Assembly: GCF_021650975.2 (NCBI RefSeq)
Contig: NZ_CP091285.1
Span: 3,720,001 to 3,784,000, forward strand
DNA length: 64,000 nucleotides
Direction: 5' to 3'
DNA from: Flavobacterium jumunjinense
GTDB taxonomy: Bacteria > Bacteroidota > Bacteroidia > Flavobacteriales > Flavobacteriaceae
Both the position numbers and the translations under genes were made by a program. This document shows, piece after piece, positions 15,341 to 61,011 of this stretch. Under the pieces are notes generated by a model. That model was not told the origin of the DNA. It did not search any database and worked only from the letters and a program-made list of their open reading frames with translations. Each line of letters begins with the position of its first letter. Position 1 is the first letter of the stretch.

Positions 15341-16222
15341 TTAAGGAATAATAATGTTCAAACTTCTTTCTAGAATAGAAATTGATATTCTATTGGTGTT
15401 TAGAATATGATATTCACCATCTATTTGCGCAACACAATTTGAAGTATTTTCAATGTCTACATTCATTTCTTTAATCAAATGATGTTTTGCTTTCTTAAAA
15501 GTATGAATCTTATTAATAATAACTGCAATTCCAAAGTATAATTTATTAAAAAAATTTAATTTAGGAACTGTTAATAGGTCTAAATAGCCATCAGATAAAG
15601 ATGCATTTGGTGTTAATGATATATTATAACCCATTTCATTAGAATTAGATATAAAAAGGAATAATAATGACTCTTTAAGTTTATGATTTCCAATGGAATA
15701 ATTAAATACTTTGGGTTCATACCATAAGCTTCTATTTATTGATGCTTTTACATAGGACATTAAGTTTCTTTTACCTGAATTTTGATATCTTTCAATAATT
15801 TCAGCATCAATACCTAAGCCCATATTGCTAAAGAAATAGGTGTCATTAATTTTTCCAACGTCTATTGTTGTTGTTCTATTATTTTCAATAATTTGAAGTG
15901 CTTCTAAACTATTTTTTGGAATGTTTAAATTAGATGCTAAGCCATTCCCAGAACCAATAGGTATAATTCCAAGTTTTATAGACGTATTTACAAGCCTATT
16001 TGCTACTTCATTTATTGTTCCGTCTCCACCACAAGCAATAATTACATCAGGATTCAACTTTATAGCTTCTTCTGTTAATAAAATAGCATGTTTTGGGTAT
16101 TTAGAATAACTTACGTTTATCTTATATTTTTTGGTATCGAAATAGGTTTTAATCGTTTCTTCATTAATAGAGTGGTTTCCTTTTCCTGAGCTTGGATTTA
16201 TAATAAAAAATAGGTGTAACAT
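15341..16222 (-). CDS. Diacylglycerol kinase-family lipid kinase (YegS/DgkB-like)
   Basis: A 293-residue cytoplasmic lipid kinase. It has the family motifs INPSSGKG (8-15), ACGGDGTINEV (about 63-73, nucleotide-binding GGDG) and GSGNGLA, and a C-terminal beta-rich half typical of DAGK_cat proteins. It phosphorylates a diacylglycerol-like or sphingoid lipid. The open frame extends to a TTG at 16270, but ATG 16222 overlaps the stop of the upstream gene by one base (TAATG), which indicates translational coupling and starts exactly at the conserved N-terminus. Substrate choice is inferred from context: the upstream transferase would release diacylglycerol. Confidence 0.87.
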   Translation of the reverse strand: MLHLFFIINPSSGKGNHSINEETIKTYFDTKKYKINVSYSKYPKHAILLTEEAIKLNPDVIIACGGDGTINEVANRLVNTSIKLGIIPIGSGNGLASNLNIPKNSLEALQIIENNRTTTIDVGKINDTYFFSNMGLGIDAEIIERYQNSGKRNLMSYVKASINRSLWYEPKVFNYSIGNHKLKESLLFLFISNSNEMGYNISLTPNASLSDGYLDLLTVPKLNFFNKLYFGIAVIINKIHTFKKAKHHLIKEMNVDIENTSNCVAQIDGEYHILNTNRISISILERSLNIIIP

Positions 16223-34678: not shown

Positions 34679-35386
34679 TTAAGCTAATTGAACTCCGAAA
34701 AAGTGTCCTACTAGAGCAGTTAAAACCATTGCAATTGTTCCCCAAAAAGTGACTCTTAAAATTGCTTTAAAAATACTTGAACCACCTGTTTTTGCAGCCA
34801 ATGCACCTAAAATTGCTAAAAATAAAATTGCTGAACCATAGAGCCAAAATTCCATAGTTTTAATTGGTAAAAATAAAGTTACTAAAAAAGGTAATGCTCC
34901 ACCAACGGTAAACGCAGCACCCGAAGCTAAAGCAGCTTGTAAGGGATTAGCTTGACTTATTTCGTTGATTCCTAATTCGTCTCTGACATGAGCTCCTAAA
35001 GCATCATGAGCTGTTAATTCTTTGGCAACTTGCAACGCCGTTTCTTTTTTCAAGCCTCTTTGTTCGTATATTTCAGTTAAACGTTGTAACTCCATTTCTG
35101 GCATTTCAACTAATTCAATTTTTTCTCTTTCAATATCTGCTTTTTCTACGTCTGTTTGTGAACTCACCGAAACATATTCACCAGCGGCCATAGATAAAGC
35201 TCCTGCTACTAATCCTGCTAGTGTTGCTAAAATTATTGGTTCTCTCAAATCGCTAGCTGCTGCAATACCAATTGCTAAACTAGAAGTAGATAATATTCCA
35301 TCATTTGCACCTAAAACAGCAGCTCTCAACCAATTGCTTTTGTGGATAAAATGATTATCTAAATAGTTATCTAATTCGTTTTCCAT
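34679..35386 (-). CDS. VIT1/CCC1-family iron/manganese transporter
   Basis: A 235-residue inner-membrane protein with about five helices: two near 25-70 and three after about 150. The signature GANDGILSTSSLAIGIAAA (27-45) and GALSMAAGEYVSVSSQTD (62-79) are typical of the vacuolar iron transporter (VIT1/CCC1) family. The cytoplasmic Glu-rich segment (about 80-120: EREKIELVEMPEMEL) is the metal-binding region in this family. It exports or stores Fe2+ or Mn2+. It lies 12 bp downstream of the small membrane protein, at the end of the metal-efflux run. Confidence 0.9.
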   Translation of the reverse strand: MENELDNYLDNHFIHKSNWLRAAVLGANDGILSTSSLAIGIAAASDLREPIILATLAGLVAGALSMAAGEYVSVSSQTDVEKADIEREKIELVEMPEMELQRLTEIYEQRGLKKETALQVAKELTAHDALGAHVRDELGINEISQANPLQAALASGAAFTVGGALPFLVTLFLPIKTMEFWLYGSAILFLAILGALAAKTGGSSIFKAILRVTFWGTIAMVLTALVGHFFGVQLA

Positions 35387-35398
35387 AATTGTACAAAT

Positions 35399-35881
35399 TT
35401 AATGATCCTCATCAGAATTCAATTCCTCTATTGGTGAACTACTATCTCTAATTTCTGTATGACGAATTTCTCCACCTGTTGTGCCTGTTTGTTGTCCTAA
35501 AAATACTGCGATTAAAGCAACAATAAGTACAAGGTAAGAAACTAGATTTGCTTTGGCATGTTTCTTAAAATTCAAATAGAAGCCTACTAGCGAGAATGCT
35601 CCTAAAATATATAAAACTATTGCCAACTTTTCAGCCATTTCTTCATGTTCGTGAATAATTTTATGACCAACAGTTGGAAGATCTTCTACTATCTCTTCTG
35701 CTCCTTCACCTGTGTACATACTTGCTGCAGCAAACAGAGAGGTGATTACAAAAAGTATATAGGACACATTCTTTATTGTATCATTTTTTAAGACTATTCC
35801 TGTAATTAAAATTCCTAATCCAAAAATCACTCCGATAATTGGAAAATGGTTTACTACCATGTGTAAATGTGCGTCGTTCAT
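35399..35881 (-). CDS. Small four-helix membrane protein (DUF2231-like)
   Basis: A 160-residue protein with four hydrophobic helices (about 10-30, 37-55, 85-102, 110-130). It has HLHMVVNHFPIIG (5-17), TGEGAEE and HEHEEMAE, which place conserved His and acidic residues near the membrane face, suggesting metal or haem binding. It resembles DUF2231-type proteins found with cation-efflux genes. It is encoded 12 bp after the adaptor gene and just before the VIT1/CCC1 gene. The acidic His-ending tail (SDEDH) is exposed. Exact role unknown. Confidence 0.7.
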   Translation of the reverse strand: MNDAHLHMVVNHFPIIGVIFGLGILITGIVLKNDTIKNVSYILFVITSLFAAASMYTGEGAEEIVEDLPTVGHKIIHEHEEMAEKLAIVLYILGAFSLVGFYLNFKKHAKANLVSYLVLIVALIAVFLGQQTGTTGGEIRHTEIRDSSSPIEELNSDEDH

Positions 35882-35893
35882 AATTTTATTTGT

Positions 35894-37009
35894 TTAGTAT
35901 ATGTCAAAAACCCCTTTAGTTAAGATTTTAGATTCTTTAGTTATTCTTTTATTAACAATTATTTCTACTTCTGATATTGATTTTTCTCCAATTATAACAG
36001 CTACTTTTTCAAAAATATAATTCTCTTTAGTAGTAGATTTCAATAAAAGTACGTAATTTTTATCAACTTCTGTAATTAAAGCATCACTAGGAATTGCAAA
36101 ACCTTTTTTAGAATCTGTTAAAATAGTTGCTTCTACAAACATTCCAGTTAGCAATCTTTGTTTTATCGATTTATCTAAATGCCCGTGAATCATTATGGTT
36201 CTGTCATTTCCTTCAATAGATTTACCAACTAATACAACTTCTGCTTTAAAAACTTCTTTAGAAGCTTGAGGAACAGTAAAATCAATATTTTGTCCAATTT
36301 TGACAGCTAAAATATCTTTTTCAAAAACAGCTAATTCTATATGTAAATGTTCTGTATCAACAATCTCTAAAATGACATCTGAAGGAGACATGAACACCCC
36401 AACATTAGCATTCATAACTGTAATATCACCAGCAATAGGTGCAAAAAGTGTAATCGTTGATGTTAGATTTCCTTTTAAAACTTGAGCAAGAGAAATGTTT
36501 AATAATTCTAATTTCTTTTTTAAACTCTGATACATTGCGTTAGCTCTTTTGTACTCACTTTCAGCTTTTAGATAGTTTTTTTGAGAAGTAATTTTTTCAT
36601 CATACAAGGTTTTTTGTCTATCGTATTCTGATTTTAAATAACTAATTTGTTCAGCTACTTCTAAATAATCTTTCTGAATATCAATAAATTCAGTGTTCTC
36701 AAGCGTAACTAAAGCTTGCCCTTTTTTTACTTTATCACCAATTAACAAGTGCGTTGTTTTTACATAACCTCCAACGAATGATGTTATTTTCGCTCTGTTT
36801 TCTGGTGGAACATCGATTTTTCCTGTAGCTTTAATTCCTACATTAAAATCTTGCTCTTTTGGTGTTCCAATTTCTAATTTTAAAGATTGAAATTGTTCTT
36901 TAGTTACAGTGATTAAACCCTCATCTACGGTTTCAATAACTTCCTCAGTATTGTTTTTACAAGAAGTTAAAATCAAAGTTAAAGCTATAATATAAGTTAA
37001 TTTTCTCAT
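35894..37009 (-). CDS. RND efflux periplasmic adaptor (membrane-fusion) lipoprotein
   Basis: A 371-residue membrane-fusion protein that bridges the inner-membrane pump and outer-membrane channel. Lipobox LTSC with C17. The HlyD-like order is visible: beta-strand/lipoyl part (about 60-100, IDVPPENRAKITSFVGGYVKT), coiled-coil hairpin (about 115-170), second lipoyl half with TLFAPIAGDI, then beta-barrel. It belongs to the CusB/CzcB type given its partner, which starts two bases upstream (37011). No His-rich metal-binding N-terminus is seen. Confidence 0.92.
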   Translation of the reverse strand: MRKLTYIIALTLILTSCKNNTEEVIETVDEGLITVTKEQFQSLKLEIGTPKEQDFNVGIKATGKIDVPPENRAKITSFVGGYVKTTHLLIGDKVKKGQALVTLENTEFIDIQKDYLEVAEQISYLKSEYDRQKTLYDEKITSQKNYLKAESEYKRANAMYQSLKKKLELLNISLAQVLKGNLTSTITLFAPIAGDITVMNANVGVFMSPSDVILEIVDTEHLHIELAVFEKDILAVKIGQNIDFTVPQASKEVFKAEVVLVGKSIEGNDRTIMIHGHLDKSIKQRLLTGMFVEATILTDSKKGFAIPSDALITEVDKNYVLLLKSTTKENYIFEKVAVIIGEKSISEVEIIVNKRITKESKILTKGVFDIY

Positions 37010-37010
37010 C

Positions 37011-40000
37011 TTATTGTATTGTTATATATTGTAATTGCAATTGTGTTAAATTGTATTGTAATAAAGCATCCAAATAATCAATTTGGATTGATGTAGCATT
37101 ATCTAGACTTAAAATGTATTGAAAAAAGTCAATTTCTCCATGTTTATAACTCATGTTGGCTACTTTTAGAATTTCTTCTGAAAGCTTTTTACCATATTGA
37201 TCATAATAATTGATGCATTCTTTATACTGGTCTAACTCCTGGTTTTTTTGTTTTAAATGAGCTTCGATTTTCAGCATTTCACTTTCTTTTTGAGTTTCCC
37301 AACTTTGTAATTCTAATTTTGCTACTTTATTTTTTGAACTATTGTAGAATAACGGAATGCCAATTCCAACTTGAAAACCATATAATGAAGAAGATAATCC
37401 TGTGTTCTTTCCTTGAAAATATTGCAAATGAATATCAGGTAAAGCTTGTTGTTTTTGAAAACTAATTTGTTTTTTATAAATATCTGTAATATTCTGATAA
37501 TATGAATTATAAAGTTCTTTATTGTTAGTATAACTTAAACTATTTTTTTGTTCTAATTCAGTTGAACTTATACTGATTTTTTCCTCTGATTGAACCAAAA
37601 CTTGCAACATTTCATATAATCCAGTCTTTTCTTTTTCTAACTGAATTAATTGGGTATTTATTTGACGAAATTTAGCTTGAGCTGTGATTTTTTCTAGATA
37701 ATTACTTTCTCCTAATTCAAATCTTCTATCACTTGCTTTTGAGAAATTTTGATATAAACTATCTAAGTACTGATACAATTTTTGTTTGTGCTGCACATAA
37801 ACAATTTGGTTGTATTTTACAGAAATTTCATTGGCTAACTGATTTTTTTGAAGTGCTAATCTTGATTTTTCTTTTTCAAATTCAGCGGTCAAAACTTTTT
37901 TATGAGCACCATAAACGGTTGGAAAAGCAAATGTTTGTTGAATTCCAAACACTTTTAAAGGTTCGTTATTTATAGCTAAATTATTTTGGTCATAACTGTA
38001 ATAAACCATTGTTTTATCAAAAGAATAGGCTGACTTAATAGAAATTTCAGCTTTATCTACTTGCAATTGTAAAGCTTTAATGTTTTTATTGTTTGCAATA
38101 CCTTTTGCAATTAAACTATCTAGTTCAGCAGTATTATTCTGTGCAAATCCAAAACTTGTAAAAAAGAAAAAAGCAATAATATAAGTTCCTGTATGGTGTT
38201 TTTTAAATTTTGGTTTTTTAAATTCTTTGGTATCTAAAATTTTATAAAGAATTGGTAAAACTAACATCGTTAATAATGTTGCTGTGAATAATCCACCAAT
38301 TACAACGGTTGCTAATGGTCTTTGCACTTCTGCTCCAGCTGAAGAAGAAATTGCCATTGGTAAGAACCCTAATGCAGCTGCACTTGCTGTTAGTAAAACA
38401 GGTCTTAATCTATCAGTTGTTCCTTTCAAAATTAATTCGTTGATATCTTTCATACCTTGGTGTTTTAGTTCTTTAAAATGTTCGATTAATACAATTCCAT
38501 TTAAAACGGCTATTCCGAAAAGAGCAATAAATCCTACACCAGCTGAAATACTGAATGGTAAATCACGAATCCATAAGAATAAAATTCCTCCAACAGCAGA
38601 TAATGGAATCGCTGAATACACCATCAACGCTTCTTTAATTGATCCAAAAGCAAAGTATAATAAGATAAAAATCAAAGCTAAAGCAATAGGAACAGCAATC
38701 ATTAATCGGTCTTTTGCACTTTGTAAGTTTTCAAATTGTCCACCATAAGTTACTCTATAACCTGTTGGTAATTTAATTTTTGTATTCACAATTTTCTGAA
38801 TATCATCTACAACACTTTGTAAATCTCTATTTCTAACGTTAATTCCAACTACAATTCTTCTGTTAGTATTATCTCTTGAAATTTTTGCTGGTCCAGTTGT
38901 GTATTCAATTGTAGCTAATTCTTGCATTGGAATTTGATTTCCATTTGGAGTAGAAACATATAAATTTTGAATATCTTGAATATCAGTACGATTGCTTTTG
39001 TCCGAACGAATGACCATATCGAAACGTTTTTCACCTTCAAATACAGTTCCCACTATTTTTCCTGAGAAAGCTAGTGATAAAACATCATTTAAATCGGCAA
39101 TGTTCATTCCGTATTGGGCTATTTTTGAGCGGTTGTATTTGACAGCCATTTGAGGTAAACCTTCTGTTTTTTCGATTATAATATCTGAAGCTCCTTCTAC
39201 ATTTTTAATCGCTTTGGCAATTTCATCCGCTTTTCGAGCTAAAATATCTAAATCGTCTCCAAAAACTTTTACAGCAACATCTGAACGTGTTCCTGAAATT
39301 AATTCGTTAAAACGCATCTCAATAGGTTGTGTGAATTCGATTTCCATGTTTGGAATCTTTTTTTCTATCGCTTCTTTAATTTTATCCGCTAATCCATCTT
39401 TGGTATCCGCTGAAACCCATTCTGATTTTGGGTTTAATTTGACAATTACGTCACTTTCTTCCATACTCATTGGATCGGTTGGCACTTCAGCTGCTCCTAT
39501 CCTACTAACTACTTGTTCTACTTCGGGAAAGTTTTTCAGAATAATTTGTTCGATTTTTGTAGTAGTTTCAATAGTCTTAGTTAGAGACGTTCCTGTTTTT
39601 AAAACGGGTTGAATTACAAAATCTCCTTCATCTAAAGTTGGAATAAATTCTCCACCCATGGTTGTAAATAAAAGTACTGCCATGACCAAAAGTCCTAATG
39701 CTCCGTACAAAACTTTTTTAGTGTTATTTAAAGCCCAATTTATGGAAGGTAAATACCAAGAATTCAATTTGTTAATCAATCTATTGGAAAGTGAGTTTGG
39801 GTTCTCTTCTTTTGGTTTTAAAAATAAAGATGAAATTACTGGAACATAAGTAAAACAGAATAACATAGCTCCAACTAAAGCAAAACTAAACGTCATTGCC
39901 ATAGGTTTAAACATTTTTCCTTCCACTCCAGAAAGTGATAAAATAGGAATGAATACAATTAAGATGATTAGTTGACCAAAAACTGCTGAATTCATCATTT

Positions 40001-41342
40001 TTGAAGCACTTTTATAAGTGATTTCATCAATTTGAATTTGTCTGTCTTCTTTTGACAATCCAACTAAATGCTTGGATTTATGAGCAATTTGGAAGGCAAT
40101 AAACTCGACTATAATGACGGCTCCATCGATTATTATTCCAAAATCAATAGCCCCTAAACTCATTAAATTGGCATCAATTCCGAAAATATTCATAAAGGAA
40201 ATGGCAAATAATAAACATAAGGGAATCACAGAAGCTACTACTAAACCTGAACGCCAATTTCCTAATAATAAAACCACTACAAAAATTACAATCAAACAAC
40301 CTAAAATAAGGTTCTCTGCTACCGTAAAAGTGGTTTTTCCTACTAGTTCACTTCGTTCTAAAAATCCGTTTATGTAAACTCCTTTTGGTAATGTTTTTTC
40401 TATTTCTAAAACTCTTGCTTTAACATCATCAATGACTTGTTTGGAGTTTCCTCCTTTTAGCATCATGACTTGCCCTAAAACTTTTTCACCTTCACCGTTT
40501 CCTGTTATAGCTCCAAAACGATTGGCTGCACCATATTTTACATTAGCGACATTTTTAACTAAAATTGGATTTCCATTTGAAGTTTTAATCACAATGTTAT
40601 TAATGTCTTCAATGGATTTTACTTTTCCTTCTCCACGAATGAAATAACTTTGATTGGTTTTTTCGATGTAAGCACCACCTGCTATACTGTTGTTTTTTTC
40701 TAAAGCTGTTAAAACATCACTTATTGTAATGTTCATGGACTTTAAAGCAGATGGAACAACAGCTATTTCATATTGTTTTAAATAGCCCCCCCAAGTATTG
40801 ATTTCTACAACACCTTTTATTCCAGATAATTGACGTTTAACAACCCAATCTTGCAAGGTTCTTAAATCAGTAACAGAATATTCATCTTTATATTCGGGTT
40901 TTACCTCTAAAGTGTATTGATAAATTTCACCTAAACCTGTTGTGATTGGCCCCATTTGTGGAGTTCCAAAACCAGCAGGAATTTTTTCAGAAGCTGATTT
41001 TATTTTTTCAGCAATTAATTGTCTTGGTAAATACGTTCCTATTTCGTCATTAAAGACAATAGTTACAACGGATAATCCGAATTTTGAAATAGAGCGAATT
41101 TCTTCTACTCCTGGTAAGTTTGCCATTTCTAATTCAACAGGATACGTAATATATTGTTCTATATCTTGAGTTGAAAGATTTTGTGAAGTTGTGATAACTT
41201 GCACTTGGTTATTGGTTACATCTGGCACAGCACCAATAGAGATTTGGGTAAGCGAATACAATCCAAATCCAAGAATGCCTAATGTAAATAAAATAACAAT
41301 GAATTTATTTTTAAGACTGAAAGCAATTATTTTTTCTAACAT
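37011..41342 (-). CDS. CusA/CzcA-family heavy-metal RND pump fused to a TolC-like outer-membrane protein
   Basis: A 1443-residue protein. Residues 1-about 1045 are a complete heavy-metal RND pump: TM1 at 10-30, porter domains, the proton-relay segment GAIDFGIIIDGAVIIVEF near 400 and a second TM bundle ending near 1040. Residues about 1050-1068 form a hydrophobic, signal-peptide-like segment ending SFGFAQ. Residues 1069-1443 are a TolC/CusC-like helical outer-membrane factor, with coiled-coil repeats. The fusion is common in Bacteroidota. It probably exports Cu/Ag or Co/Zn/Cd; the metal cannot be told from sequence. The tail must be cleaved or cross the periplasm. Confidence 0.93.
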   Translation of the reverse strand: MLEKIIAFSLKNKFIVILFTLGILGFGLYSLTQISIGAVPDVTNNQVQVITTSQNLSTQDIEQYITYPVELEMANLPGVEEIRSISKFGLSVVTIVFNDEIGTYLPRQLIAEKIKSASEKIPAGFGTPQMGPITTGLGEIYQYTLEVKPEYKDEYSVTDLRTLQDWVVKRQLSGIKGVVEINTWGGYLKQYEIAVVPSALKSMNITISDVLTALEKNNSIAGGAYIEKTNQSYFIRGEGKVKSIEDINNIVIKTSNGNPILVKNVANVKYGAANRFGAITGNGEGEKVLGQVMMLKGGNSKQVIDDVKARVLEIEKTLPKGVYINGFLERSELVGKTTFTVAENLILGCLIVIFVVVLLLGNWRSGLVVASVIPLCLLFAISFMNIFGIDANLMSLGAIDFGIIIDGAVIIVEFIAFQIAHKSKHLVGLSKEDRQIQIDEITYKSASKMMNSAVFGQLIILIVFIPILSLSGVEGKMFKPMAMTFSFALVGAMLFCFTYVPVISSLFLKPKEENPNSLSNRLINKLNSWYLPSINWALNNTKKVLYGALGLLVMAVLLFTTMGGEFIPTLDEGDFVIQPVLKTGTSLTKTIETTTKIEQIILKNFPEVEQVVSRIGAAEVPTDPMSMEESDVIVKLNPKSEWVSADTKDGLADKIKEAIEKKIPNMEIEFTQPIEMRFNELISGTRSDVAVKVFGDDLDILARKADEIAKAIKNVEGASDIIIEKTEGLPQMAVKYNRSKIAQYGMNIADLNDVLSLAFSGKIVGTVFEGEKRFDMVIRSDKSNRTDIQDIQNLYVSTPNGNQIPMQELATIEYTTGPAKISRDNTNRRIVVGINVRNRDLQSVVDDIQKIVNTKIKLPTGYRVTYGGQFENLQSAKDRLMIAVPIALALIFILLYFAFGSIKEALMVYSAIPLSAVGGILFLWIRDLPFSISAGVGFIALFGIAVLNGIVLIEHFKELKHQGMKDINELILKGTTDRLRPVLLTASAAALGFLPMAISSSAGAEVQRPLATVVIGGLFTATLLTMLVLPILYKILDTKEFKKPKFKKHHTGTYIIAFFFFTSFGFAQNNTAELDSLIAKGIANNKNIKALQLQVDKAEISIKSAYSFDKTMVYYSYDQNNLAINNEPLKVFGIQQTFAFPTVYGAHKKVLTAEFEKEKSRLALQKNQLANEISVKYNQIVYVQHKQKLYQYLDSLYQNFSKASDRRFELGESNYLEKITAQAKFRQINTQLIQLEKEKTGLYEMLQVLVQSEEKISISSTELEQKNSLSYTNNKELYNSYYQNITDIYKKQISFQKQQALPDIHLQYFQGKNTGLSSSLYGFQVGIGIPLFYNSSKNKVAKLELQSWETQKESEMLKIEAHLKQKNQELDQYKECINYYDQYGKKLSEEILKVANMSYKHGEIDFFQYILSLDNATSIQIDYLDALLQYNLTQLQLQYITIQ

Positions 41343-41370
41343 TTTATTAAAATTGAAAAATTAATAAATA

Positions 41371-41397
41371 GTATTCATCTGTAAATAAGATGAATAC
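41371..41397. promoter_or_regulatory. Perfect inverted repeat upstream of the efflux pump gene
   Basis: GTATTCATCT (41371-41380) and AGATGAATAC (41388-41397) are perfect 10-nt inverted repeats with a 7-nt spacer, 28 bp before the pump start codon. No T run follows on the minus strand. It could be an operator for the nearby OmpR-type regulator or an RNA hairpin. Confidence 0.4.
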
Positions 41398-41441
41398 AAA
41401 ATAATTATAGAAATTAGTTTAAATTTCTATAGAGTATTATG

Positions 41442-41819
41442 TTAGCCTATTTTAGGAGGAAGCCAAATAGAAGCAAATAAATTTGACTTGAATGAATTTT
41501 TGTAAAAGAAGATTTTATTTACATCAAAAAAAATTATTTCCATTAAAAGCTGAAAACTTAAAATTGGAAATGTAAACAATGTATTAACTGAATTTTCAAA
41601 GGTTTTAAATGGTAAATCTTGATGTTCTTTTTTATTATTTTCAGTTTTTTTTAAATAATGATCTTTAATGAAGTCGGTGAAAGAAACAGATTGGTTTGCT
41701 ACTTTGCTTTTATGTTCATTATAATGGTCAATTAAGTTAGGAACTTTCAATAATTGCCCTATTGATGTGTTGGCACACATAAATACTATTATTAAAAAAA
41801 AGGCAACTGCTTTATTCAT
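41442..41819 (-). CDS. Small exported protein of metal-efflux loci, function unknown
   Basis: A 125-residue protein with a signal peptide or anchor (residues 1-22). The body contains His, Lys and Glu rich stretches (HYNEHKSKV, KKEHQDLPFKTFE) and the end reads SIWLPPKIG. Small proteins with a C-terminal IWxPPKI motif upstream of CusA-type genes occur in many Bacteroidota; I recognise the pattern but know no function. Periplasmic metal handling is a guess from the location between the sensor kinase and the pump. Confidence 0.7.
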   Translation of the reverse strand: MNKAVAFFLIIVFMCANTSIGQLLKVPNLIDHYNEHKSKVANQSVSFTDFIKDHYLKKTENNKKEHQDLPFKTFENSVNTLFTFPILSFQLLMEIIFFDVNKIFFYKNSFKSNLFASIWLPPKIG

Positions 41820-41889
41820 TTTGTAAAATTAGTAACTTAATTAATTCTATTACAAATTTACAGTTTAAAAATAGAATGAAACTTAAGTT

Positions 41890-43290
41890 CTACTTAGGAT
41901 TTCCTAAAGGGAAAATTAATTTTACTTCTGTTCCAATATTTAAAGTACTATTTAATATAATTTCAATTTTTAGTAAATCACATAATCTTTTCACAATGGA
42001 CAATCCTAAACCTGTTCCTTTTATTTCTGGATGATTAGAAACATCTGAACGATAAAAAGAGCCAAATATTTTATTCAAATCCTCGTTTGAAATACCCACA
42101 CCATTGTCTTTTATATAAAAATCAATAGCATTATTCTTGGTAACTAATGAAATAGAAACTTCTCCATTGCAATTTGTATACTTAATAGCGTTAGAAATTA
42201 AATTACTAATGATGATATATACTAAATAGTTATCTGACATCAAATAATAATCTTCACTAAAGTTAGTTTTGATACTAAGTTTTTTGCTTTCAATTTTATC
42301 AGAAAATCGAGTTAAACCATCTAAAATAATAGCGTTTAAATAAATAGATTCCTTTTTTATATTTTGTTTTTGATTTTCAAAACGAGCTAAAAGGAGCAAT
42401 TGATCGACCATATGATTCAAGCGATCAACTTCGGCAATACAAAAGCTTATTTTAGACTGATATTCTTCTTGTGTTCTTGGTTTGCGAATTAAAACCTCCA
42501 TTGTTCCTTTCATAACAGCTAAAGGTGTCCTTAATTCATGAGATGCATCAGAAGTAAATTGTTTTTCTCTTTCAATCGTATTTTCAATTCTATCCAACAG
42601 GTGATTAATATTTTCAGAAAGTATATACAATTCATCCTGATTATTTGGTAAAGGAATTCTGGTTTGCAGATTGTCCTTAGTAATCTTACTTGAAGTTTCT
42701 ATAATTGTTTGAACGGGTTTGATACTTCTTCCTGCAAAAAATCGAGCAATGAGAAACAATATAATTAAAATTATAGGAAAAGATATAAGTAAAGTATTTG
42801 TTAGAATAGCTACTATTTCAAAATCTTCTAAAGACATGGCAACCACAACATAGCCAACAATTTTTCCTTTATTTATAATTGTTGTTTGAATCTGTCGAAG
42901 TGGTACATCATTTAATGAAGCATTGACAAATTTGTTATTACAAGTATTTGGAAATAATTCAAGATTAGAATCATTAAGATTTGGTGATTTATCAATCAGT
43001 TGTTTATTATCGTCATAGAATTCTACAAAAACAGGATTTACTTTTATTGAATTATGTTCTCTAGCTCTCCATTGATCTACCTGAATTAAATAGGTATCAT
43101 TTTCATCTGTTGAAACATCATCTAAATGCTTATTTAATTCTTCTTGAATACCAGCATTAATATGTTGGTTCACACTAAATTTAACAATAAAATGGATGCA
43201 TACAAAAACAAGAGCAATAAGAATTGAACTACTAATAATATAATTAAATGCAATTCTATTTTTGAACGAAAATGAGAAAAAATTAGTCAT
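41890..43290 (-). CDS. HAMP-containing sensor histidine kinase
   Basis: A 466-residue membrane kinase. Two transmembrane helices (about 18-38 and 161-184) flank a periplasmic sensor of about 120 residues. HAMP domain (about 185-240), then H box SDASHELRTPLAVMKGTMEVL with H251, N box LISNAIKYT, and boxes DNGVGI and GTGLGLSIVKRL. The frame begins at a TTG two codons earlier; ATG 43290 overlaps the regulator stop by 8 bp. The layout matches CusS/CzcS-type metal sensors, fitting the adjacent efflux genes, but the sensor domain itself is not recognised. Confidence 0.92.
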   Translation of the reverse strand: MTNFFSFSFKNRIAFNYIISSSILIALVFVCIHFIVKFSVNQHINAGIQEELNKHLDDVSTDENDTYLIQVDQWRAREHNSIKVNPVFVEFYDDNKQLIDKSPNLNDSNLELFPNTCNNKFVNASLNDVPLRQIQTTIINKGKIVGYVVVAMSLEDFEIVAILTNTLLISFPIILIILFLIARFFAGRSIKPVQTIIETSSKITKDNLQTRIPLPNNQDELYILSENINHLLDRIENTIEREKQFTSDASHELRTPLAVMKGTMEVLIRKPRTQEEYQSKISFCIAEVDRLNHMVDQLLLLARFENQKQNIKKESIYLNAIILDGLTRFSDKIESKKLSIKTNFSEDYYLMSDNYLVYIIISNLISNAIKYTNCNGEVSISLVTKNNAIDFYIKDNGVGISNEDLNKIFGSFYRSDVSNHPEIKGTGLGLSIVKRLCDLLKIEIILNSTLNIGTEVKLIFPLGNPK

Positions 43291-43945
43291 TTGCAATATA
43301 GCCTACTCCTCTAATAGTTTTTATTAATTCTTGTTCTTTAGTTAAGTTTAATTTCTTTCGAATAGCATTAATAAATACGTCAATTACACCTGTATCATAT
43401 TCAAAATGAATGTCCCAAACGTCTTCAATAATTTTATTTCTAGTACAAACAGTACCTTTATTTTTAATTAAATATTGCAAAAGTTCAAACTCTCTTTGTG
43501 TTAATATAATTTCATTTTGATCAATAAACACCTGATAAGTACTAAGGTTTAAACTTATATTTCCTAATGTAAGAATGGTAGCTTCATTTTTTGTTCTAAA
43601 ATGTATCTTAATTCGTTCTAAAAGTTCCTCAAAACTAAATGGCTTTTTTATATAATCATTTGCACCTGCTTTTAAACCCTCAATAGTTTCTTGAAGAGTG
43701 TCTTTTGCAGTTAAGAATAATATTGGAATTGTTTTATTTTCTACTCGAATGGCTTTGCAAACGTCTAATCCGCTCATTTTTGGTATCATCCAATCTAAAA
43801 GAATTAAATCTACAGGTGTTTTCAATGCTTTTTCTAACCCTTCTTCTCCATTTGTCGCATAAGAAATCACGTAACCTTCTTCCTCTAAACCTTGTTTTAG
43901 AAAATTAATAATCCCTTTTTCATCTTCTATGATTAAAATATGCAT
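43283..43945 (-). CDS. OmpR-family response regulator of the metal/redox locus
   Basis: A 220-residue regulator with receiver domain (E7-D8, phospho-acceptor D51 in LLDWMIP, Lys in YIKKPF) and a winged-helix output domain ending TIRGVGYIA. It resembles CusR/CopR-type regulators. It starts only 8 bp downstream of the DUF3570 gene and overlaps the kinase gene, so DUF3570, regulator and kinase are likely one transcript. Probable targets are the efflux pump and the ApbE-containing genes (inference). Confidence 0.93.
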   Translation of the reverse strand: MHILIIEDEKGIINFLKQGLEEEGYVISYATNGEEGLEKALKTPVDLILLDWMIPKMSGLDVCKAIRVENKTIPILFLTAKDTLQETIEGLKAGANDYIKKPFSFEELLERIKIHFRTKNEATILTLGNISLNLSTYQVFIDQNEIILTQREFELLQYLIKNKGTVCTRNKIIEDVWDIHFEYDTGVIDVFINAIRKKLNLTKEQELIKTIRGVGYIAND

Positions 43946-43953
43946 TGCTATAT

Positions 43954-45264
43954 TTATTGTTGAACAAATTTAATTCCAAAAGACACAATATTAGCGAATA
44001 AACCATCGCTCCTTTTATAATGATTGTACCTAAAATCGATATTTTTTAATCCAAATTTCCAAATTTTTCTATCCATAAAAATATCGGTGTATCCAATACC
44101 AACACCATATTGATTAGCATTAAAAGTAGATAAATCATAATCGGAAGTATAATATTTTTCAGTAGAAAGATGTTGCTCGTATGGTGCAAAATATTTAGAT
44201 TTCTGTTGTGTATAATAACGATACATTGGAAAAACAGTAAACTTATCAGACAATTTAATGGGTAATTCAATATTCATTGTATGAGAAGAAATATCCCAGT
44301 TATCCCAATAATAACGATAATAAGAACGAATTACTAGACGTTCATTAACATAATAATTCAATCTAGCACCTACAGGTACTTTAAAACGACTATCTGGTAA
44401 GCGTTCAATATCATCTGCTAATTGAAATTCGTTAATAAACGAATCGGCAACATCTGCAAAATAAATTCTTTGATAAGGAGTTGATAATAATCCTTGTTGT
44501 TGTAGTACATCTAAAAACAAAGAAAATTGCATCTTTTTTGTTGCTACCTGAGAAAAACTTAAAGAAACTGCGTAAGAATTTCTGTTTTTATTCTCATGAA
44601 AAGAAAACTTATTTGGATTATAAGCTGTGTTTCCAGTTATAGTGAAATTATTAAATATACCTCCATTTGTATTACCATAAGAAGCGAAATCTTGCAATTC
44701 TTTAGGGTAAATTGGACTCCAAGTGTCTAAATATACGTTTGCAGATAAATTAATTTCAGAGTTCTTATCATTGAATAATTTAGTTATTCCACCACCAAAG
44801 CCAATAGATGAATAATCATACTCTACTGAACCAGATAAATGTGCGTTCCAAACGGTATTCCTATCATCTGAACTATGACTGTAATTTGTTACTAAACTTG
44901 TTAAAGCATCTGAAGCTGAAGCACCAGAAGAAGCTTGCCAAGGACTAGGTGTATTACTATCGAAAGGATTAATATTTCCTGATGAAGCAGAAGAATAAGC
45001 AGAAATACCGGCATCAATGGTTAAAACTGCATCATCATTTAAAGGTACTGCAACAACGATTGTTGGAGTAATATCTGTTAAATCTTCCATTCCTTTTCCT
45101 CCAGAAACAGCAGAATGAATACCATCTTGTTTATAGTAACTCGCTAAAAAATCAACTTCTATATTTTCTAATACTCGCTTTTTATATGTCACATTTGTAG
45201 AGTCTTTTTCTTGACTATAGGAGAACAAACCGAATCCGAGTAATAATACTGTTATATATTTCAT
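43954..45264 (-). CDS. DUF3570 outer-membrane protein
   Basis: A 436-residue exported protein. Signal peptide 1-17 (ending FSYSQ). The remainder alternates aromatic and polar residues in strands, as in an outer-membrane beta-barrel, and has the DUF3570 pattern: VDFLASYYKQDGIHSAVSGG near 35, TIDAGISAYSSASSGNINPFD and WQASSGASASDAL near 110. The last stretch resembles, but does not fully match, the S/T-G-A-T/S-x-S/T core of ApbE flavinylation sites, with no Asp at the usual place. It follows DUF4266 by 23 bp in the same operon. Confidence 0.88.
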   Translation of the reverse strand: MKYITVLLLGFGLFSYSQEKDSTNVTYKKRVLENIEVDFLASYYKQDGIHSAVSGGKGMEDLTDITPTIVVAVPLNDDAVLTIDAGISAYSSASSGNINPFDSNTPSPWQASSGASASDALTSLVTNYSHSSDDRNTVWNAHLSGSVEYDYSSIGFGGGITKLFNDKNSEINLSANVYLDTWSPIYPKELQDFASYGNTNGGIFNNFTITGNTAYNPNKFSFHENKNRNSYAVSLSFSQVATKKMQFSLFLDVLQQQGLLSTPYQRIYFADVADSFINEFQLADDIERLPDSRFKVPVGARLNYYVNERLVIRSYYRYYWDNWDISSHTMNIELPIKLSDKFTVFPMYRYYTQQKSKYFAPYEQHLSTEKYYTSDYDLSTFNANQYGVGIGYTDIFMDRKIWKFGLKNIDFRYNHYKRSDGLFANIVSFGIKFVQQ

Positions 45265-45287
45265 TTAATACAATTTAGACTTGAAAA

Positions 45288-45497
45288 TTAGTTACAACCA
45301 CAACCACCACCTGTTTTTCCACCATTCGCTCCTGCAGCAGCCTCACGATATACTTGAAAATTGGTTTCAAACCTTTCAGACGATTTTGCCGTTAGTTTCA
45401 TATCAGGATCATTAATATACTGTTTGTCATATTCTTTGACACTATTGCATGAATATCCTAAAGAAAGGATTGCTATTACTAAAATTATTTTTCTCAT
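45288..45497 (-). CDS. DUF4266 small lipoprotein with Gly/Cys-rich tail
   Basis: A 69-residue lipoprotein. Lipobox GYSC with C17. Middle segment DPDMKLTAKSSERFETNFQVYREAAAG is typical of DUF4266, and the end is GGKTGGGCGCN, with two Cys separated by one Gly. The tail looks like a metal or cofactor site or a modified peptide end. It lies 1 bp after ApbE and 23 bp before DUF3570. The fixed neighbours (ApbE, DUF3570, thioredoxin-like) suggest these proteins work together; function unknown. Confidence 0.85.
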   Translation of the reverse strand: MRKIILVIAILSLGYSCNSVKEYDKQYINDPDMKLTAKSSERFETNFQVYREAAAGANGGKTGGGCGCN

Positions 45498-45498
45498 T

Positions 45499-46482
45499 TT
45501 ATTCTGATTTAAGGTCTATGTTTTTTGAATGATGAATTGTTCCTTCATCATCAATAATAATACATTCAATTCCATTTATCTGATTCACAAGGTCTAAACC
45601 AACCTCTACTCCTAATACAAAAACACCTGTAGCTATAGCATCTGCAATCTCAGTTTGTTTTGCAAAAACAGAAATACTAATAATACCAGAGGCTGGATAA
45701 CCAGTTCTAGGATCTATAATATGTGAATATCGCTTCCCGTTGAAAGTGACATACTTCTCATAATTTCCTGAGGTCTCCACTGCACTATCTATAAGCGGAA
45801 ATGTAGCAAATACTTTATTCTTATTCAAAGGATTAACAATTGCTACTGTCCAAGGTTTTCCATCTATTTGATGTCCCCAAGTATTAATATCTCCCGATAC
45901 ATTTACTATTCCAGCTGTACAACCTTTACTTTTAAGTAATTCTTTTATTCTATCTGCAATATAACCTTGACCTATGCCTCCTAATCCCAATTTCATCCCT
46001 TTCTCTTTAAGGAAAATTGTTTTCAATTTAGCGTCTAGAATTATTTTTTGATAACCTACTCTTACTACAGATTTTTTAATAGCCTCTTGAGTTGGCATTT
46101 CTTTCATGCTTCCATCAAATTTCCAAATTTTATCCATAGATGCATAACTAATATCAAAAGCACCCTTAGTTAATTGCGAAATCTTAATTGCTCTTTCTAC
46201 TAAATCAAAAACTTCCACTTCCACTTTTATTGGTTGAATACCTGCATTTTGATTTACCTTTGATATTTGAGAAGTAGGAATCCAATCCGATATTTGGTTT
46301 TCAATTCTTTTTACTTCATCTATAGCTATATCACAAAACTGTTTCCCTTCAATGGAATCTTTTGCAATTACAGTAATTTCAAAAGGACTACCTAATAAAG
46401 ATGCTTTACTTTTGTGTATAACTTGTCCGAAAGAAATAGTAGTTACTACCCAAAATAAAACAAAAAAGCTTAGTTTTTTCAT
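45499..46482 (-). CDS. apbE: FAD:protein FMN transferase (ApbE)
   Basis: A 327-residue exported ApbE-family enzyme with an N-terminal signal peptide (1-19). It covalently attaches FMN to Thr or Ser of target proteins in the periplasm, using FAD and Mg2+. Family features include GLGGIGQGYIADRIKELLKSKG, NVSGDINTWG, SAVETSGNYEKYV, HIIDPRTGYPASGIISISV and ADAIATGVFVLG. The usual targets (Nqr/Rnf subunits, FMN-binding domains) are not encoded here, so the local target may be one of the neighbouring exported proteins. The start overlaps the thioredoxin gene stop by one base. Confidence 0.92.
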   Translation of the reverse strand: MKKLSFFVLFWVVTTISFGQVIHKSKASLLGSPFEITVIAKDSIEGKQFCDIAIDEVKRIENQISDWIPTSQISKVNQNAGIQPIKVEVEVFDLVERAIKISQLTKGAFDISYASMDKIWKFDGSMKEMPTQEAIKKSVVRVGYQKIILDAKLKTIFLKEKGMKLGLGGIGQGYIADRIKELLKSKGCTAGIVNVSGDINTWGHQIDGKPWTVAIVNPLNKNKVFATFPLIDSAVETSGNYEKYVTFNGKRYSHIIDPRTGYPASGIISISVFAKQTEIADAIATGVFVLGVEVGLDLVNQINGIECIIIDDEGTIHHSKNIDLKSE

Positions 46483-46913
46483 TATTTTAAAGCATAAATC
46501 ATCTTAATATACTCATCTGGAGAAACATTTTTAAATCCCATTTTTCCAAAAATAGTTCCTTCTGAATTTAATAAAACAACTAAAGGAAAACTTCCTTCAT
46601 TATTATACTTTTCTGCTAAGGCTCTATTGTGAGCTGTTTGATTATCTGATAATTGATTAGATTTTTTTCTTGGAAAGTTTACTTTGACTAAAATCCATTT
46701 TTCAGATGATTCTTTAATGAATGCTTCCGACTGCCAAATATTTTTATCTAAACGAATGCAAGGAGCACACCAATCGGATCCTGAAAAAACCATTAGTATA
46801 TCCTTTCCTTCTGCAACAGCTACTTTTTTAGCTTGTTCAAAATCATATTTCCAATCTTGTGAGAAGCTTATATTGGCAAATAAAATAAACAGAATGATGA
46901 GAATCTTTTTCAT
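46482..46913 (-). CDS. Periplasmic thioredoxin-like protein (WCAPC)
   Basis: A 143-residue protein with a signal peptide (1-18) and a thioredoxin fold with the redox motif in SGSDWCAPCIRL and the cis-Pro segment EGSFPLVVLL. It resembles the DUF899/Thioredoxin_7 group. It is the first gene of the ApbE-DUF4266-DUF3570 run and would act in the periplasm as a disulfide reductase or haem/metal-protein thiol chaperone. It ends TAATG overlapping apbE, so the two are coupled. A good candidate for reducing the two Cys of the DUF4266 protein (inference). Confidence 0.88.
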   Translation of the reverse strand: MKKILIILFILFANISFSQDWKYDFEQAKKVAVAEGKDILMVFSGSDWCAPCIRLDKNIWQSEAFIKESSEKWILVKVNFPRKKSNQLSDNQTAHNRALAEKYNNEGSFPLVVLLNSEGTIFGKMGFKNVSPDEYIKMIYALK

Positions 46914-47050
46914 AACAATTAATTTTAATACAAATTAAAGATTTTTTTGTAGTAATAAATACAATACTATTTTAAATTAAGTAAAACTTAAGAAAGCACA
47001 ACTAATTTAATAATAATTTAAGACTTAAAAACAAAAACGTTGCTAAAAGA

Positions 47051-50386: not shown

Positions 50387-51574
50387 ATGCCTATGAAAAC
50401 TAATCGAGTACTATTATTTTTATTTGTTTTTTCAATTATATCTTGTAATAATGATTCTGACGATGGTTATGAAAATATTGTAAGTTATCCTAGTATCCTG
50501 GCTACATTTGGAAATACAATTGATACCGATAATTTAGATAATTACGCAAATCAAACAATTCCTAATTACATAACTAAAGACAATGGTTTAATAAACCCTA
50601 TAACGGATAAAGGTGCAACATTAGGACGAGTGTTGTTTTATGATAAAAAATTATCCTCCAGTAACTCAATTGCTTGCGCAAGTTGTCATAAACAATCTAA
50701 TGCGTTTGGAGATAATGTAATAGCAAGTACAGGAGTAAATGGAACAACAGGTAGACATTCAATGCGTTTAATTAATGCTAGATTTTCTAATGAAACAAAA
50801 TTCTTTTGGGACGAAAGAGCTACAACTTTAGAGATTCAAACCACTATGCCTATTAAAGATCATGGAGAAATGGGATTTAGTGGAACTAATGGGGATTTAT
50901 CTTTTAATGATTTAATTATAAAATTAAATGAAGTAGCGTATTATAAAGAGTTGTTCAGTTTCGTTTATGGCTCTGAAGAGATTACAGAAATTAAAATTCA
51001 AAATGCTTTAGCACAATTTATAAGAAGTATTCAATCTTTTGACTCAAAATATGATGCTGGAAGAGCTCTAGTAGCAAATGATAATCAAGCATTTTCAAAT
51101 TTTACGCAACAAGAAAATTTAGGTAAAAATTTATTTTTATCACCACCTCAGTTTGATGGATCTGGTTCACGTATTGGTGGTGGAGTTGGTTGTGCTGGCT
51201 GTCATAGGGCACCAGAATTTGACATAGACCCAAACACATTAAATAATGGAATAATTGGAACTATAAATGGGACAGGAATAGATTTAACCAATACACGAGC
51301 ACCTTCATTAAGAGATTTAGTAAATCCTAACGGTATATTGAACACAACATTAATGCATACTGGAAATATTCCAAATCTTCAGGCTGCTATAGGTCATTAT
51401 AATACAATTAATTTAGCTCCTGGCAATACAAATCTTGATGCAAGATTACAACCCGGAGGAAATGGACAACAACTCAATATGACTGGAGCAGAAATGAGTG
51501 CATTACAAGCATTTCTAATTACTTTATCAGGTTCTGATGTTTACACAAATTCTAAATGGAGCTCTCCATTTTAA
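50387..51574 (+). CDS. Di-haem cytochrome c peroxidase (MauG/CcpA-like)
   Basis: A 395-residue predicted lipoprotein (lipobox IISC near residue 20). It has two c-type haem motifs: CASCH (about residue 98) and CAGCH (about residue 269). DHGEMGFSG and RAPSLRD are typical of the bacterial di-haem peroxidase/MauG family, which reduces hydrogen peroxide or oxidises protein or metal substrates in the periplasm. ATG 50387 and ATG 50393 both fit. The gene stands alone and ends at a perfect hairpin. Function as peroxidase is a family inference. Confidence 0.88.
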   Translation: MPMKTNRVLLFLFVFSIISCNNDSDDGYENIVSYPSILATFGNTIDTDNLDNYANQTIPNYITKDNGLINPITDKGATLGRVLFYDKKLSSSNSIACASCHKQSNAFGDNVIASTGVNGTTGRHSMRLINARFSNETKFFWDERATTLEIQTTMPIKDHGEMGFSGTNGDLSFNDLIIKLNEVAYYKELFSFVYGSEEITEIKIQNALAQFIRSIQSFDSKYDAGRALVANDNQAFSNFTQQENLGKNLFLSPPQFDGSGSRIGGGVGCAGCHRAPEFDIDPNTLNNGIIGTINGTGIDLTNTRAPSLRDLVNPNGILNTTLMHTGNIPNLQAAIGHYNTINLAPGNTNLDARLQPGGNGQQLNMTGAEMSALQAFLITLSGSDVYTNSKWSSPF

Positions 51575-59457: not shown

Positions 59458-61011
59458 ATGAACAAAATAAAAATTCTTTGGGTAGATGATGAAATTGATT
59501 TATTAAAGCCACATATATTGTTCTTAGAAAAGAAAAATTATGAGGTAACCACTTGTAATAATGGCCAGGATGCTATTGATTTATTTGCAGAAACAAAATT
59601 CGATATTGTTTTTCTAGATGAGAATATGCCTGGATTGAGTGGTCTTGAAACACTTTCAGAAATTAAAGAAAAAAAATCTTCAATTCCAGTAATAATGATT
59701 ACGAAGAGTGAGGAAGAATATATAATGGAAGAAGCAATTGGTTCTAAAATAGCCGATTACCTAATAAAACCAGTAAATCCTAATCAAATTCTATTAAGTT
59801 TAAAGAAAAACCTAGATCATTCTCGATTGGTTTCTGAAAAAACAACCTTAGATTATCAAAAGGAATTTAGAAAAATAGCTATGGATATGGCTATGGTAAA
59901 TTCTTATGAAGAATGGGTAGACTTATACAAAAGACTTGTATATTGGGAAATGGAACTTGAAAATATTGAAGACCAAAGTATGGTTGAAATATTAGAAAGT
60001 CAAAAAGCTGAAGCAAACAATCAATTTGGGAAATTCATTGAACGTAATTATGAAGATTGGTTCAGTAAAACGGATGATAAACCAATATTATCACATAAAA
60101 TATTTGGAGAATTAGTTGCACCAGAAATTAGAAAAAAAGACAAACCAATTCTATTCATTGTTATTGATAATTTACGATACGATCAATGGAAAGCCTTTGA
60201 AGGAATTGTTAGCAATCATTATAAATTAGAAAAAGAAGTGAGCTACTTCTCTATTTTACCAACAGCAACACAATATGCTAGAAATGCTATTTTTTCAGGT
60301 TTAACACCTTTAGAAATGGAAAAAAAGTTTCCTCAATATTGGAAAAACGACATTGATGAAGGAGGAAAAAACCTTTATGAAGGAGAATTTTTAACAGAAC
60401 AATTAAAGAGTTTAGGATTAAATATTAAGCAAGAATATTATAAAATTACCAACTTTAAAGATGGTAAAAAATTAGCTGAAAATTTCAAAGGACTTAAAGG
60501 AAATGATTTAACAACAATAGTCTATAATTTTGTAGATATGCTTTCACATTCTAAAACAGAAATGGAAGTAGTAAAAGAACTAGCTTCAGATGATAAAGCA
60601 TATCGTTCATTAACAGTTAGTTGGTTTAAAAACTCTCCATTATTAGACATTATACAACAAGCTCAAAAACAAGGCTTTAAATTAATTATAACAACTGATC
60701 ATGGTACAATAAATTGTAAAAATCCTTCAAAAGTTATTGGAGATAAAAATACAAGTTTAAATTTGCGTTATAAAACGGGAAGAAGTTTAACTTTTGAAGA
60801 CAAAGATGTTTACTCAATTAAAGATCCTAAAAAGATTGGACTTCCTGCATTAAACATGAGTAGTTCATTTATTTTTGCAAAGAACGATCTGTTTTTAGCC
60901 TATGTAAACAATTTCAATCATTATGTAAGTTATTATAGAAATACCTATCAGCATGGAGGAATTTCACTAGAAGAAATGATAATTCCTTTTATGGTATTGG
61001 AACCAAAATAA
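59458..61011 (+). CDS. porX: T9SS response regulator PorX with PglZ phosphatase domain
   Basis: A 517-residue bifunctional regulator. Receiver domain 1-120 with D10-D11 and phospho-acceptor D54 in VFLDENMPG, then a helical linker and a C-terminal alkaline-phosphatase-superfamily (PglZ) domain: IVIDNLRYDQW (metal Asp), T in LPTATQYARNA, and IITTDHGT (Asp/His). In Porphyromonas and Flavobacterium PorX partners the sensor PorY and controls T9SS genes, and its phosphatase acts on nucleotides. PorY is not here. It is followed by a hairpin and tsaE. Confidence 0.95.
   Translation: MNKIKILWVDDEIDLLKPHILFLEKKNYEVTTCNNGQDAIDLFAETKFDIVFLDENMPGLSGLETLSEIKEKKSSIPVIMITKSEEEYIMEEAIGSKIADYLIKPVNPNQILLSLKKNLDHSRLVSEKTTLDYQKEFRKIAMDMAMVNSYEEWVDLYKRLVYWEMELENIEDQSMVEILESQKAEANNQFGKFIERNYEDWFSKTDDKPILSHKIFGELVAPEIRKKDKPILFIVIDNLRYDQWKAFEGIVSNHYKLEKEVSYFSILPTATQYARNAIFSGLTPLEMEKKFPQYWKNDIDEGGKNLYEGEFLTEQLKSLGLNIKQEYYKITNFKDGKKLAENFKGLKGNDLTTIVYNFVDMLSHSKTEMEVVKELASDDKAYRSLTVSWFKNSPLLDIIQQAQKQGFKLIITTDHGTINCKNPSKVIGDKNTSLNLRYKTGRSLTFEDKDVYSIKDPKKIGLPALNMSSSFIFAKNDLFLAYVNNFNHYVSYYRNTYQHGGISLEEMIIPFMVLEPK

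Follow-up and report, generated by a model that had tools for sequence, protein, structure and literature searches.

A thioredoxin-ApbE-DUF4266-DUF3570 quartet heads a two-component metal-efflux block in Flavobacterium jumunjinense and is likely a flavin electron outlet for metal stress

In a 64,000-nucleotide stretch of the Flavobacterium jumunjinense genome (contig NZ_CP091285.1, positions 3,720,001 to 3,784,000; hereafter the window), four genes for a secreted thioredoxin-like protein (trx), the flavin transferase ApbE, a small DUF4266 lipoprotein and a DUF3570 protein stand directly in front of a response regulator, a sensor kinase and a metal pump. Why is this quartet joined to metal efflux, and what does it do there? 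The best explanation, with a probability of about 0.55, is an envelope thiol-to-flavin electron relay that is an add-on to a two-component metal-efflux regulon. Gene content, conserved gene order, a promoter repeat with its location and a barrel model were computed directly. The quartet is likely a flavin electron outlet for metal stress.

An earlier note on this DNA had described six tightly spaced genes, from trx to the kinase. Their coordinates, minus strand and Pfam families were confirmed, as were the WCxPC motif of the redox protein (WCAPC) and the GGGCGCN end of the lipoprotein. trx and apbE overlap by 1 base, the next gaps are 1, 23 and 8 bp, and regulator and kinase overlap by 14 bp. 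The same-strand run extends past the kinase to position 34679 (whole block 34679-46913). The pump is only part of the setting, and a DUF2231-like protein and a VIT1-family transporter close the block. Most gaps are between -14 and 23 bp. Only the gene for a secreted protein of 125 amino acids (aa) has wider spacing, 70 and 99 bp on its two sides, with room for a possible second promoter. A new observation is the larger set of genes on one strand that the quartet leads in Flavobacterium, comprising regulator, kinase, secreted protein, CzcA-type RND pump, adaptor, DUF2231-like protein and VIT1. The literature searched places neither the quartet in a two-component metal-efflux regulon with a defined repeat nor its flavin sites in a single outer loop of a barrel.

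The quartet itself is of a known kind, described in 2021. According to the available text of Meheust et al. 2021 (PMC8238504), DUF3570 of Chlorobium luteolum was flavinylated by ApbE in an experiment, and either of its flavin sites was enough. The same text reports 285 flavinylation clusters with DsbD, which typically also contain DUF3570, DUF4266 and a thioredoxin-like protein, and 316 clusters in which ApbE occurs with these three proteins but DsbD is absent. It suggests redox cycling for the CxC of DUF4266 and leaves the function open; iron assimilation is suggested on the basis of 25 DUF3570 clusters with VIT1. A literature search on quartet genes and metal efflux, with most subscription journals outside its coverage, returned only this paper for DUF3570 and DUF4266. 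Neither term occurs in the available text of an mSystems 2024 paper or of a 2025 ApbE review. A Shewanella DsbD paper was discarded as a source (its available part concerns cytochrome maturation). Because DUF3570 is flavinylated in the published experiment, a known ApbE client is present, and the earlier note was mistaken in seeing none.

DUF4266 was found in 25 of 60 genomes, including that of the window. The order trx-ApbE-DUF4266-DUF3570 was the same in 24/24 loci of other genomes, and the GGCGCN end of DUF4266 was kept in 25/25 aligned sequences. A larger set comprised the best 80 of 576 DUF3570 relatives from named genomes (30 Flavobacterium and 50 others, weighted to Flavobacteriaceae); its neighbour counts are lower bounds, from loci of unequal length. 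The whole quartet was present in 72 of the 80 loci and ApbE in 79. The idea in the earlier note, which would have been refuted if DUF4266 and DUF3570 had no link to ApbE elsewhere, is therefore not refuted. The constant order and the 72 complete loci argue against chance. The 30 Flavobacterium loci contained a regulator (29), kinase (26), CusA (22), adaptor (20), VIT1 (17), DUF2231-like gene (17), LTA-synthase-like sulfatase (27) and CDF exporter (4). The other 50 had a kinase in 11, CusA in 8 and VIT1 in 1. The pump was also linked in Maribacter, Salegentibacter and Sinomicrobium loci.

With DUF4266 as the marker, the family was found in 54 of 198 sampled Bacteroidota genomes, and order and completeness varied in 32 further Bacteroidota DUF4266 loci. 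Several loci of one family had DUF4266-DUF3570-ApbE followed by a gene of ~620 aa, with DsbD in the single one tested. Five plasmid records had matches (two Hymenobacter and three Vibrio). Of the Hymenobacter plasmids, one is annotated with the full quartet, DUF3570 being split in two, and the other, whose gene table is incomplete, shows thioredoxin and DUF3570. A contig titled Klebsiella pneumoniae metagenome-assembled genome (L116) carries a Flavobacterium-type quartet with regulator and kinase and is probably a mislabelled bin. In two Psychroserpens loci (L125, L137), a Crp/Fnr-like gene, recognized by eye, directly precedes the quartet and suggests another regulator.

The evidence that joins quartet and pump is the repeat CTTAA-N6-CTTAA, first seen in the DNA upstream of trx in relatives. 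In the set of 80 loci, the exact repeat was found near the trx start (from -300 to +60) in 24 of the 37 two-component loci scanned versus 1 of 32 loci without two-component genes (Fisher P 3e-8). This sole exception is F. algicola, which has kept quartet and pump and has no local regulator. After merging at 80% DUF3570 identity, the counts were 16/21 versus 1/18, and at 70% they were 5/6 versus 0/3. In the two-component loci, 67 of 76 distinct copies fell into the trx, post-kinase and sulfatase promoter regions, which make up 4% of the bases. Seven of the nine remaining copies precede the 125-aa gene, CusA, DUF2231, ApbE or the regulator. After the kinase stop codon, an exact copy was present in 17 of 22 loci if the pump or the 125-aa gene followed and in 0 of 8 if DUF2231 or VIT1 did; of the 6 other loci, 5 had one. 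The window's own post-kinase copy has one mismatch and stands in the same place as in relatives. The sulfatase promoters had the repeat in 18/30, a count that is not independent because divergent trx and sulfatase genes share part of their upstream regions.

The degenerate repeat is meaningless alone, since the window had 18 matches with one mismatch allowed and shuffled sequences had a mean of 22. The exact repeat occurred 17 times in the genome versus 61 times for the reversed control. The strict form CTTAAG-N5-CTTAAG was searched in 14 whole genomes chosen among those with the quartet, and seven copies were found in all. Two of them precede trx, and four lie where the kinase gene ends, with CusA following in three cases. 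The seventh stands 64 bp before a gene of the sulfatase family, at a distance of ~2.2 Mb from the quartet. The reversed control of the strict form gave ten sites in the 14 genomes (a count only).

Shared control of quartet and pump is well supported, and that they form part of one regulon is highly probable. The repeat is proposed as the binding site of the regulator. The earlier note had placed the quartet under the same regulator as the pump, and the repeat shared by trx and pump in many species bears this out. Its interpretation is partly supported: the flavin device and the shared regulator stand, the claim of no client fell, and the quartet was already in print.

Two candidates outside the block were checked. 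dsbD was rejected for now as a regulon member; the nearby exact repeat (C1:3320304, L053:509-524) lies inside the preceding reading frame, ~0.3 kb before dsbD, and is probably due to chance. The LTA-synthase-like gene at 16222-18183 of the window is the genome's best match to the regulon enzyme of relatives (46%), and no repeat was found upstream of it with up to one mismatch.

Do the two-component genes belong to the pump or to the quartet? A sample of 20 loci was taken out of 43 genus genomes with VIT1 and without listed DUF4266 (eight DUF4266 genomes were not listed), and none of these 20 VIT1 loci had the quartet. Regulator and kinase were present in eight. Six of the eight also had pump, adaptor and VIT1, and the other two had VIT1 and no pump. 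Five of the six also had a DUF2231-like gene, with the order of VIT1 and DUF2231 reversed relative to the window. The repeat was found in 8/8 loci with regulator and kinase versus 2/12 others. Two-component efflux blocks therefore exist without the quartet; in the loci that have it, the quartet precedes the regulator and carries a repeat of its own. That the two-component genes serve the quartet alone was rejected, as 8/20 quartet-free loci keep them, six with the pump. That they serve the pump alone, with the quartet adjoining by chance, was also rejected, given that the repeat is found before trx and that its presence follows that of the two-component genes.

ApbE, DUF3570, Thioredoxin_7 and DUF4266 occur here in one cluster, which is the composition of a DUF3570 flavinylation system. 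Of the two candidate sites for flavin mononucleotide (FMN), site 2 of DUF3570 (SGAS, residues 113-116, expected 0.04 times by composition) matches the [ST]GA[ST] motif; site 1 reads SSAS. A flavin on the DUF3570 of the window is very likely, and the envelope redox device with a flavin proposed in the earlier note is supported by the Chlorobium luteolum experiment (PMC8238504). No DsbD is encoded in the cluster, and the only DsbD_TM match in the genome is at C1:3321296, ~0.44 Mb away. DsbD is not required in the cluster, as 316 published clusters lack it. The genome's other ApbE gene lies 3.3 kb from the only FMN_bind match; plausibly, that ApbE serves Nqr and the ApbE of the window serves DUF3570. 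The nearest solved chain to trx is 2ju5, of DsbH type (E 6.8e-12).

The AlphaFold model of DUF3570 is a 16-strand outer-membrane barrel. Its long strands are even in number, the turns on one side are short, and it resembles outer-membrane barrels of solved structure. When the DUF3570 profile was searched against PDB sequences, no convincing match was returned (best E 0.15). In the model, Ser94 and Ser116, the two candidate FMN sites, share one loop (92-117), which we read as extracellular. Acidic runs (at least 4 Asp/Glu, mostly poly-Asp) occur between the two flavin-site motifs in 8 of 78 loop sequences (DUF3570 loop 2 of L094, L097, L099, L103, L113, L124, L163 and L166), with extra SGAS/TGAS motifs alongside. 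A second DUF3570 copy, 63% identical to that of the window, lies between a response regulator and a CDF exporter gene at L030:10385-11830 and also in L092.

Which metal is concerned? The pump scored 1172 bits with TIGR00914 (cut-off 701), as an HME-RND heavy-metal pump. Its signature DFGIIIDGAVIIVEF differs from DFGX3DGAX3VEN, the consensus of the divalent HME1/HME2 types (PMC3637150), in the last residue, which is F. The best NCBIfam families were the heavy-metal regulator for the regulator and the heavy-metal sensor for the kinase, both below cut-off, so that this likeness suggests only that the pair works like that family. The VIT1 of the window belongs to its family (PF01988, 225.7 bits, cut-off 28.1). 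Among 249 sampled genomes of the genus, DUF4266 occurred in 154 and VIT1 in 141. DUF4266 places were listed for 146 of the 154; 98 of these genomes have both, and in 62 of the 98, VIT1 lay within 20 kb of the quartet (DUF4266), versus an estimated chance expectation of ~1/98 (40 kb in ~3.8 Mb). The strand was the same in 62 of 63 nearby VIT1 places, and at least two of the 63 were fragments with an internal stop (G079, G430). VIT1 lay upstream at ~1.7-2.2 kb, 4.3 kb and once each at 17 kb and (other strand) 10.5 kb, or downstream at 2-5 kb and 9-13 kb. In one family of the Bacteroidota sample, no VIT1 was seen within 20 kb on the same contig in 31 DUF4266 genomes, as judged by eye, with weak matches at 22 and 27 kb and many short contigs.

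The nearby VIT1 frames were longer than 330 aa in 25/63. The one tested (L124) has VIT1 at residues 153-364, and residues 9-60 are similar to encapsulated ferritin (E 0.003). The iron exporter MbfA has a ferritin-like plus VIT1 layout (PMC7762939, PMC4902296). Since VIT1 has RND and CDF exporters as neighbours and is ferritin-fused in some relatives, the arrangement suggests export rather than the assimilation proposed in 2021. The DUF2231-like protein and VIT1 at the end of the block point to iron or other divalent metals. Metal efflux or overload is the probable setting, and iron in particular has about an even chance of being the metal. In L124 (14489-15975), which is from the same genome as L035, VIT1 and DUF2231 are followed by a 189-aa membrane protein without a family match and by a multihaem cytochrome c (Cytochrom_c3_2).

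In the proposed relay, electrons would pass from cytosolic thioredoxin to DsbD, encoded elsewhere in the genome, and from there through the secreted thioredoxin-like protein (WCAPC) and the CxC in the tail of DUF4266 to the FMN attached to DUF3570 by ApbE. They would leave at the cell surface, since both FMN serines are in the loop read as extracellular, and the likeliest acceptor would be an oxidised metal, for instance Fe(III). Such metal reduction at the surface is a tentative part of the proposal, rather less likely than not. Kinase and regulator would sense metal or envelope stress, and the regulator would bind CTTAA-N6-CTTAA and turn on the relay, the RND pump, the adaptor, the DUF2231-like protein and the VIT1 exporter. 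In relatives, the regulon would also include an LTA-synthase-like enzyme and, in some, a CDF exporter. A bolder version, which we consider unlikely, is a haem-free outer-membrane conduit that the two-component regulon would switch on under metal overload, along with the VIT1 and RND exporters. The glycine-rich DUF4266 tail would reach with its CxC into the DUF3570 lumen, and the two loop FMNs would reduce external Fe(III) or another metal. Exported iron would in this way be kept reduced and soluble, and the poly-aspartate runs between the flavin sites of some relatives might be a metal-docking patch.

Several observations weigh against the relay in a metal-efflux regulon. The repeat was discovered on the same loci in which it was later counted; the whole-genome test weighs more for this reason, and there 9/14 genomes lacked the strict repeat. 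Moreover, 13/37 two-component loci had no exact repeat before trx. The kinase reached 216 bits (cut-off 293) and the regulator 211 (cut-off 279) with TIGR01386/TIGR01387. The pump signature is of the divalent-metal type, and we know of no pump of this type that carries iron. Flavin site 1 (SSAS) lacks the glycine that the published motif has. For a sister clade, the two sites could be found in 115/120 proteins, none of which has a strict motif there; either the motif is looser or those proteins are not flavinylated there. Outside the 30 Flavobacterium loci, a CusA, VIT1 or CDF match was found in only 9/50, and 41/50 had none in the available DNA.

These 41 loci would fit a general respiratory or thiol-redox system without a metal task, whose co-regulation answers any envelope stress. 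The large gene next to the quartet in one family (DsbD in the one tested) and the Crp/Fnr-like gene in Psychroserpens point the same way. We consider this unlikely, as VIT1 is linked in several layouts and the pump linkage extends to the three genera named above. If the task does concern metal, the metal may be Zn, Co, Ni, Cd or Cu, with the quartet's electrons used for thiol repair or for a redox change of metal in the envelope. The DFG-DGA-VE signature of the pump, of HME1/HME2 type except for the last residue, and CDF in 4/30 Flavobacterium loci are consistent with this, as is a finding from Desulfovibrio, where, in another context, an ApbE gene was induced more than any other at high Cu(II) (PMC8836040). 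The frequent and partly ferritin-fused VIT1 makes it a somewhat improbable alternative.

Iron assimilation, in which the flavin protein reduces Fe(III) and Fe(II) enters via VIT1, is the published reading of VIT1 in flavinylation clusters, 25 of them with DUF3570 (PMC8238504). However, VIT1 is co-directional with the RND efflux pump in the window and stands with CDF exporters in relatives, many nearby frames are long and the one tested has a ferritin-like stretch fused to VIT1 as in MbfA, and the regulators resemble heavy-metal systems. Assimilation is thus very unlikely here. The preferred reading remains the thiol-to-flavin relay added to a metal-efflux regulon.

Compared with the published DUF3570/DsbD-type system (PMC8238504), the window shares ApbE, DUF3570, the PF13899 thioredoxin-like protein, the C-terminal CxC of DUF4266 and the tight clustering. 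It differs in the absence of DsbD from the cluster, in one flavin motif without glycine and in the junction to a two-component efflux block with a shared repeat. As in CzcRS and CopRS with their HME-RND pumps, regulator, kinase and pump are adjacent, and these families are the best NCBIfam matches. In contrast, the scores are below the curated cut-offs, and the regulon adds a flavin relay and VIT1. The VIT1 of the window (235 aa, VIT1 at 20-228) belongs to the VIT1 family, as does MbfA, but is without the ferritin-like N-terminus found in the relative L124, and it is a candidate exporter. PmrAB is activated by Fe(III) and governs an enzyme of lipid modification that shields the cell from toxic iron (PMC6416907). 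By analogy, the regulon studied here would also pair metal stress with a lipid-modifying sulfatase-family enzyme. In relatives, the repeat precedes an LTA-synthase-like enzyme, and a diacylglycerol kinase is adjacent in single relatives. However, this enzyme is not EptA, the repeat is different and no repeat was found before the genome's own copy. The likeness to PmrAB is a resemblance and not membership. Haem-based outer-membrane conduits such as Mtr carry electrons across the outer membrane to external acceptors. The proposed relay would do the same, but the quartet has no haem protein, and the carriers would be thiols and FMN.

Features of the block, in window coordinates
Feature	Position	Strand	Basis and remarks
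Repeat 1, CTTAA-N6-CTTAA, proposed response-regulator site	46977..46992	-	Exact; 63 bp upstream of trx start; same position class in relatives
Secreted thioredoxin-like protein (trx), WCAPC, Thioredoxin_7	46482..46913	-	Pfam E 2.4e-11; signal peptide by eye
ApbE, FAD:protein FMN transferase	45499..46482	-	Pfam E 7.7e-83
DUF4266 small lipoprotein, C-terminal GGGCGCN	45288..45497	-	Pfam E 1.9e-20; lipobox by eye
DUF3570, predicted outer-membrane barrel, candidate FMN sites Ser94 (SSAS) and Ser116 (SGAS)	43954..45264	-	Pfam E 2.5e-38
OmpR-type response regulator	43283..43945	-	Pfam Response_reg and Trans_reg_C
Sensor histidine kinase with periplasmic domain	41890..43296	-	Pfam HisKA, HATPase_c and HAMP; listed with TTG start, true start may be the ATG two codons later
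Repeat 2, CCTAAGTAGAACTTAAG	41882..41898	-	One mismatch; at kinase stop, before pump genes; same place as CTTAAGTAGTTCTTAAG of relatives
125-aa secreted protein, conserved histidines, no family	41442..41819	-	Histidines kept in 19 relatives; no match in Pfam or NCBIfam
CusA/CzcA-type RND pump fused to outer-membrane efflux domain	37011..41342	-	ACR_tran and OEP; TIGR00914
RND periplasmic adaptor	35894..37009	-	HlyD_D23; TIGR01730 above cut-off
DUF2231-like membrane protein, conserved histidines	35399..35881	-	PF09990 E 1.5e-4, below cut-off; conservation in 21 relatives
VIT1-family transporter (Fe2+/Mn2+ type)	34679..35386	-	PF01988 E 7.7e-67

Two further genes of the window were recorded. A di-haem cytochrome c peroxidase (CCP_MauG, 50387-51574) lies ~3.5 kb upstream of the quartet on the opposite strand. 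At 59458-61011, a response-regulator receiver is fused to a PglZ domain, an arrangement known from PorX, which belongs to the type IX secretion regulon.

One sensor-regulator pair apparently controls the poorly understood quartet along with a metal pump and a likely iron exporter, and this suggests that the quartet acts when metal or iron is in excess. The defined repeat, the exporter co-targets and the loop model make this directly testable, both for the inducing metal and for the reduction of that metal at the surface. If the surface outlet is true, the quartet would be a haem-free electron exit in the outer membrane, in a family present in 54 of the 198 sampled Bacteroidota genomes.

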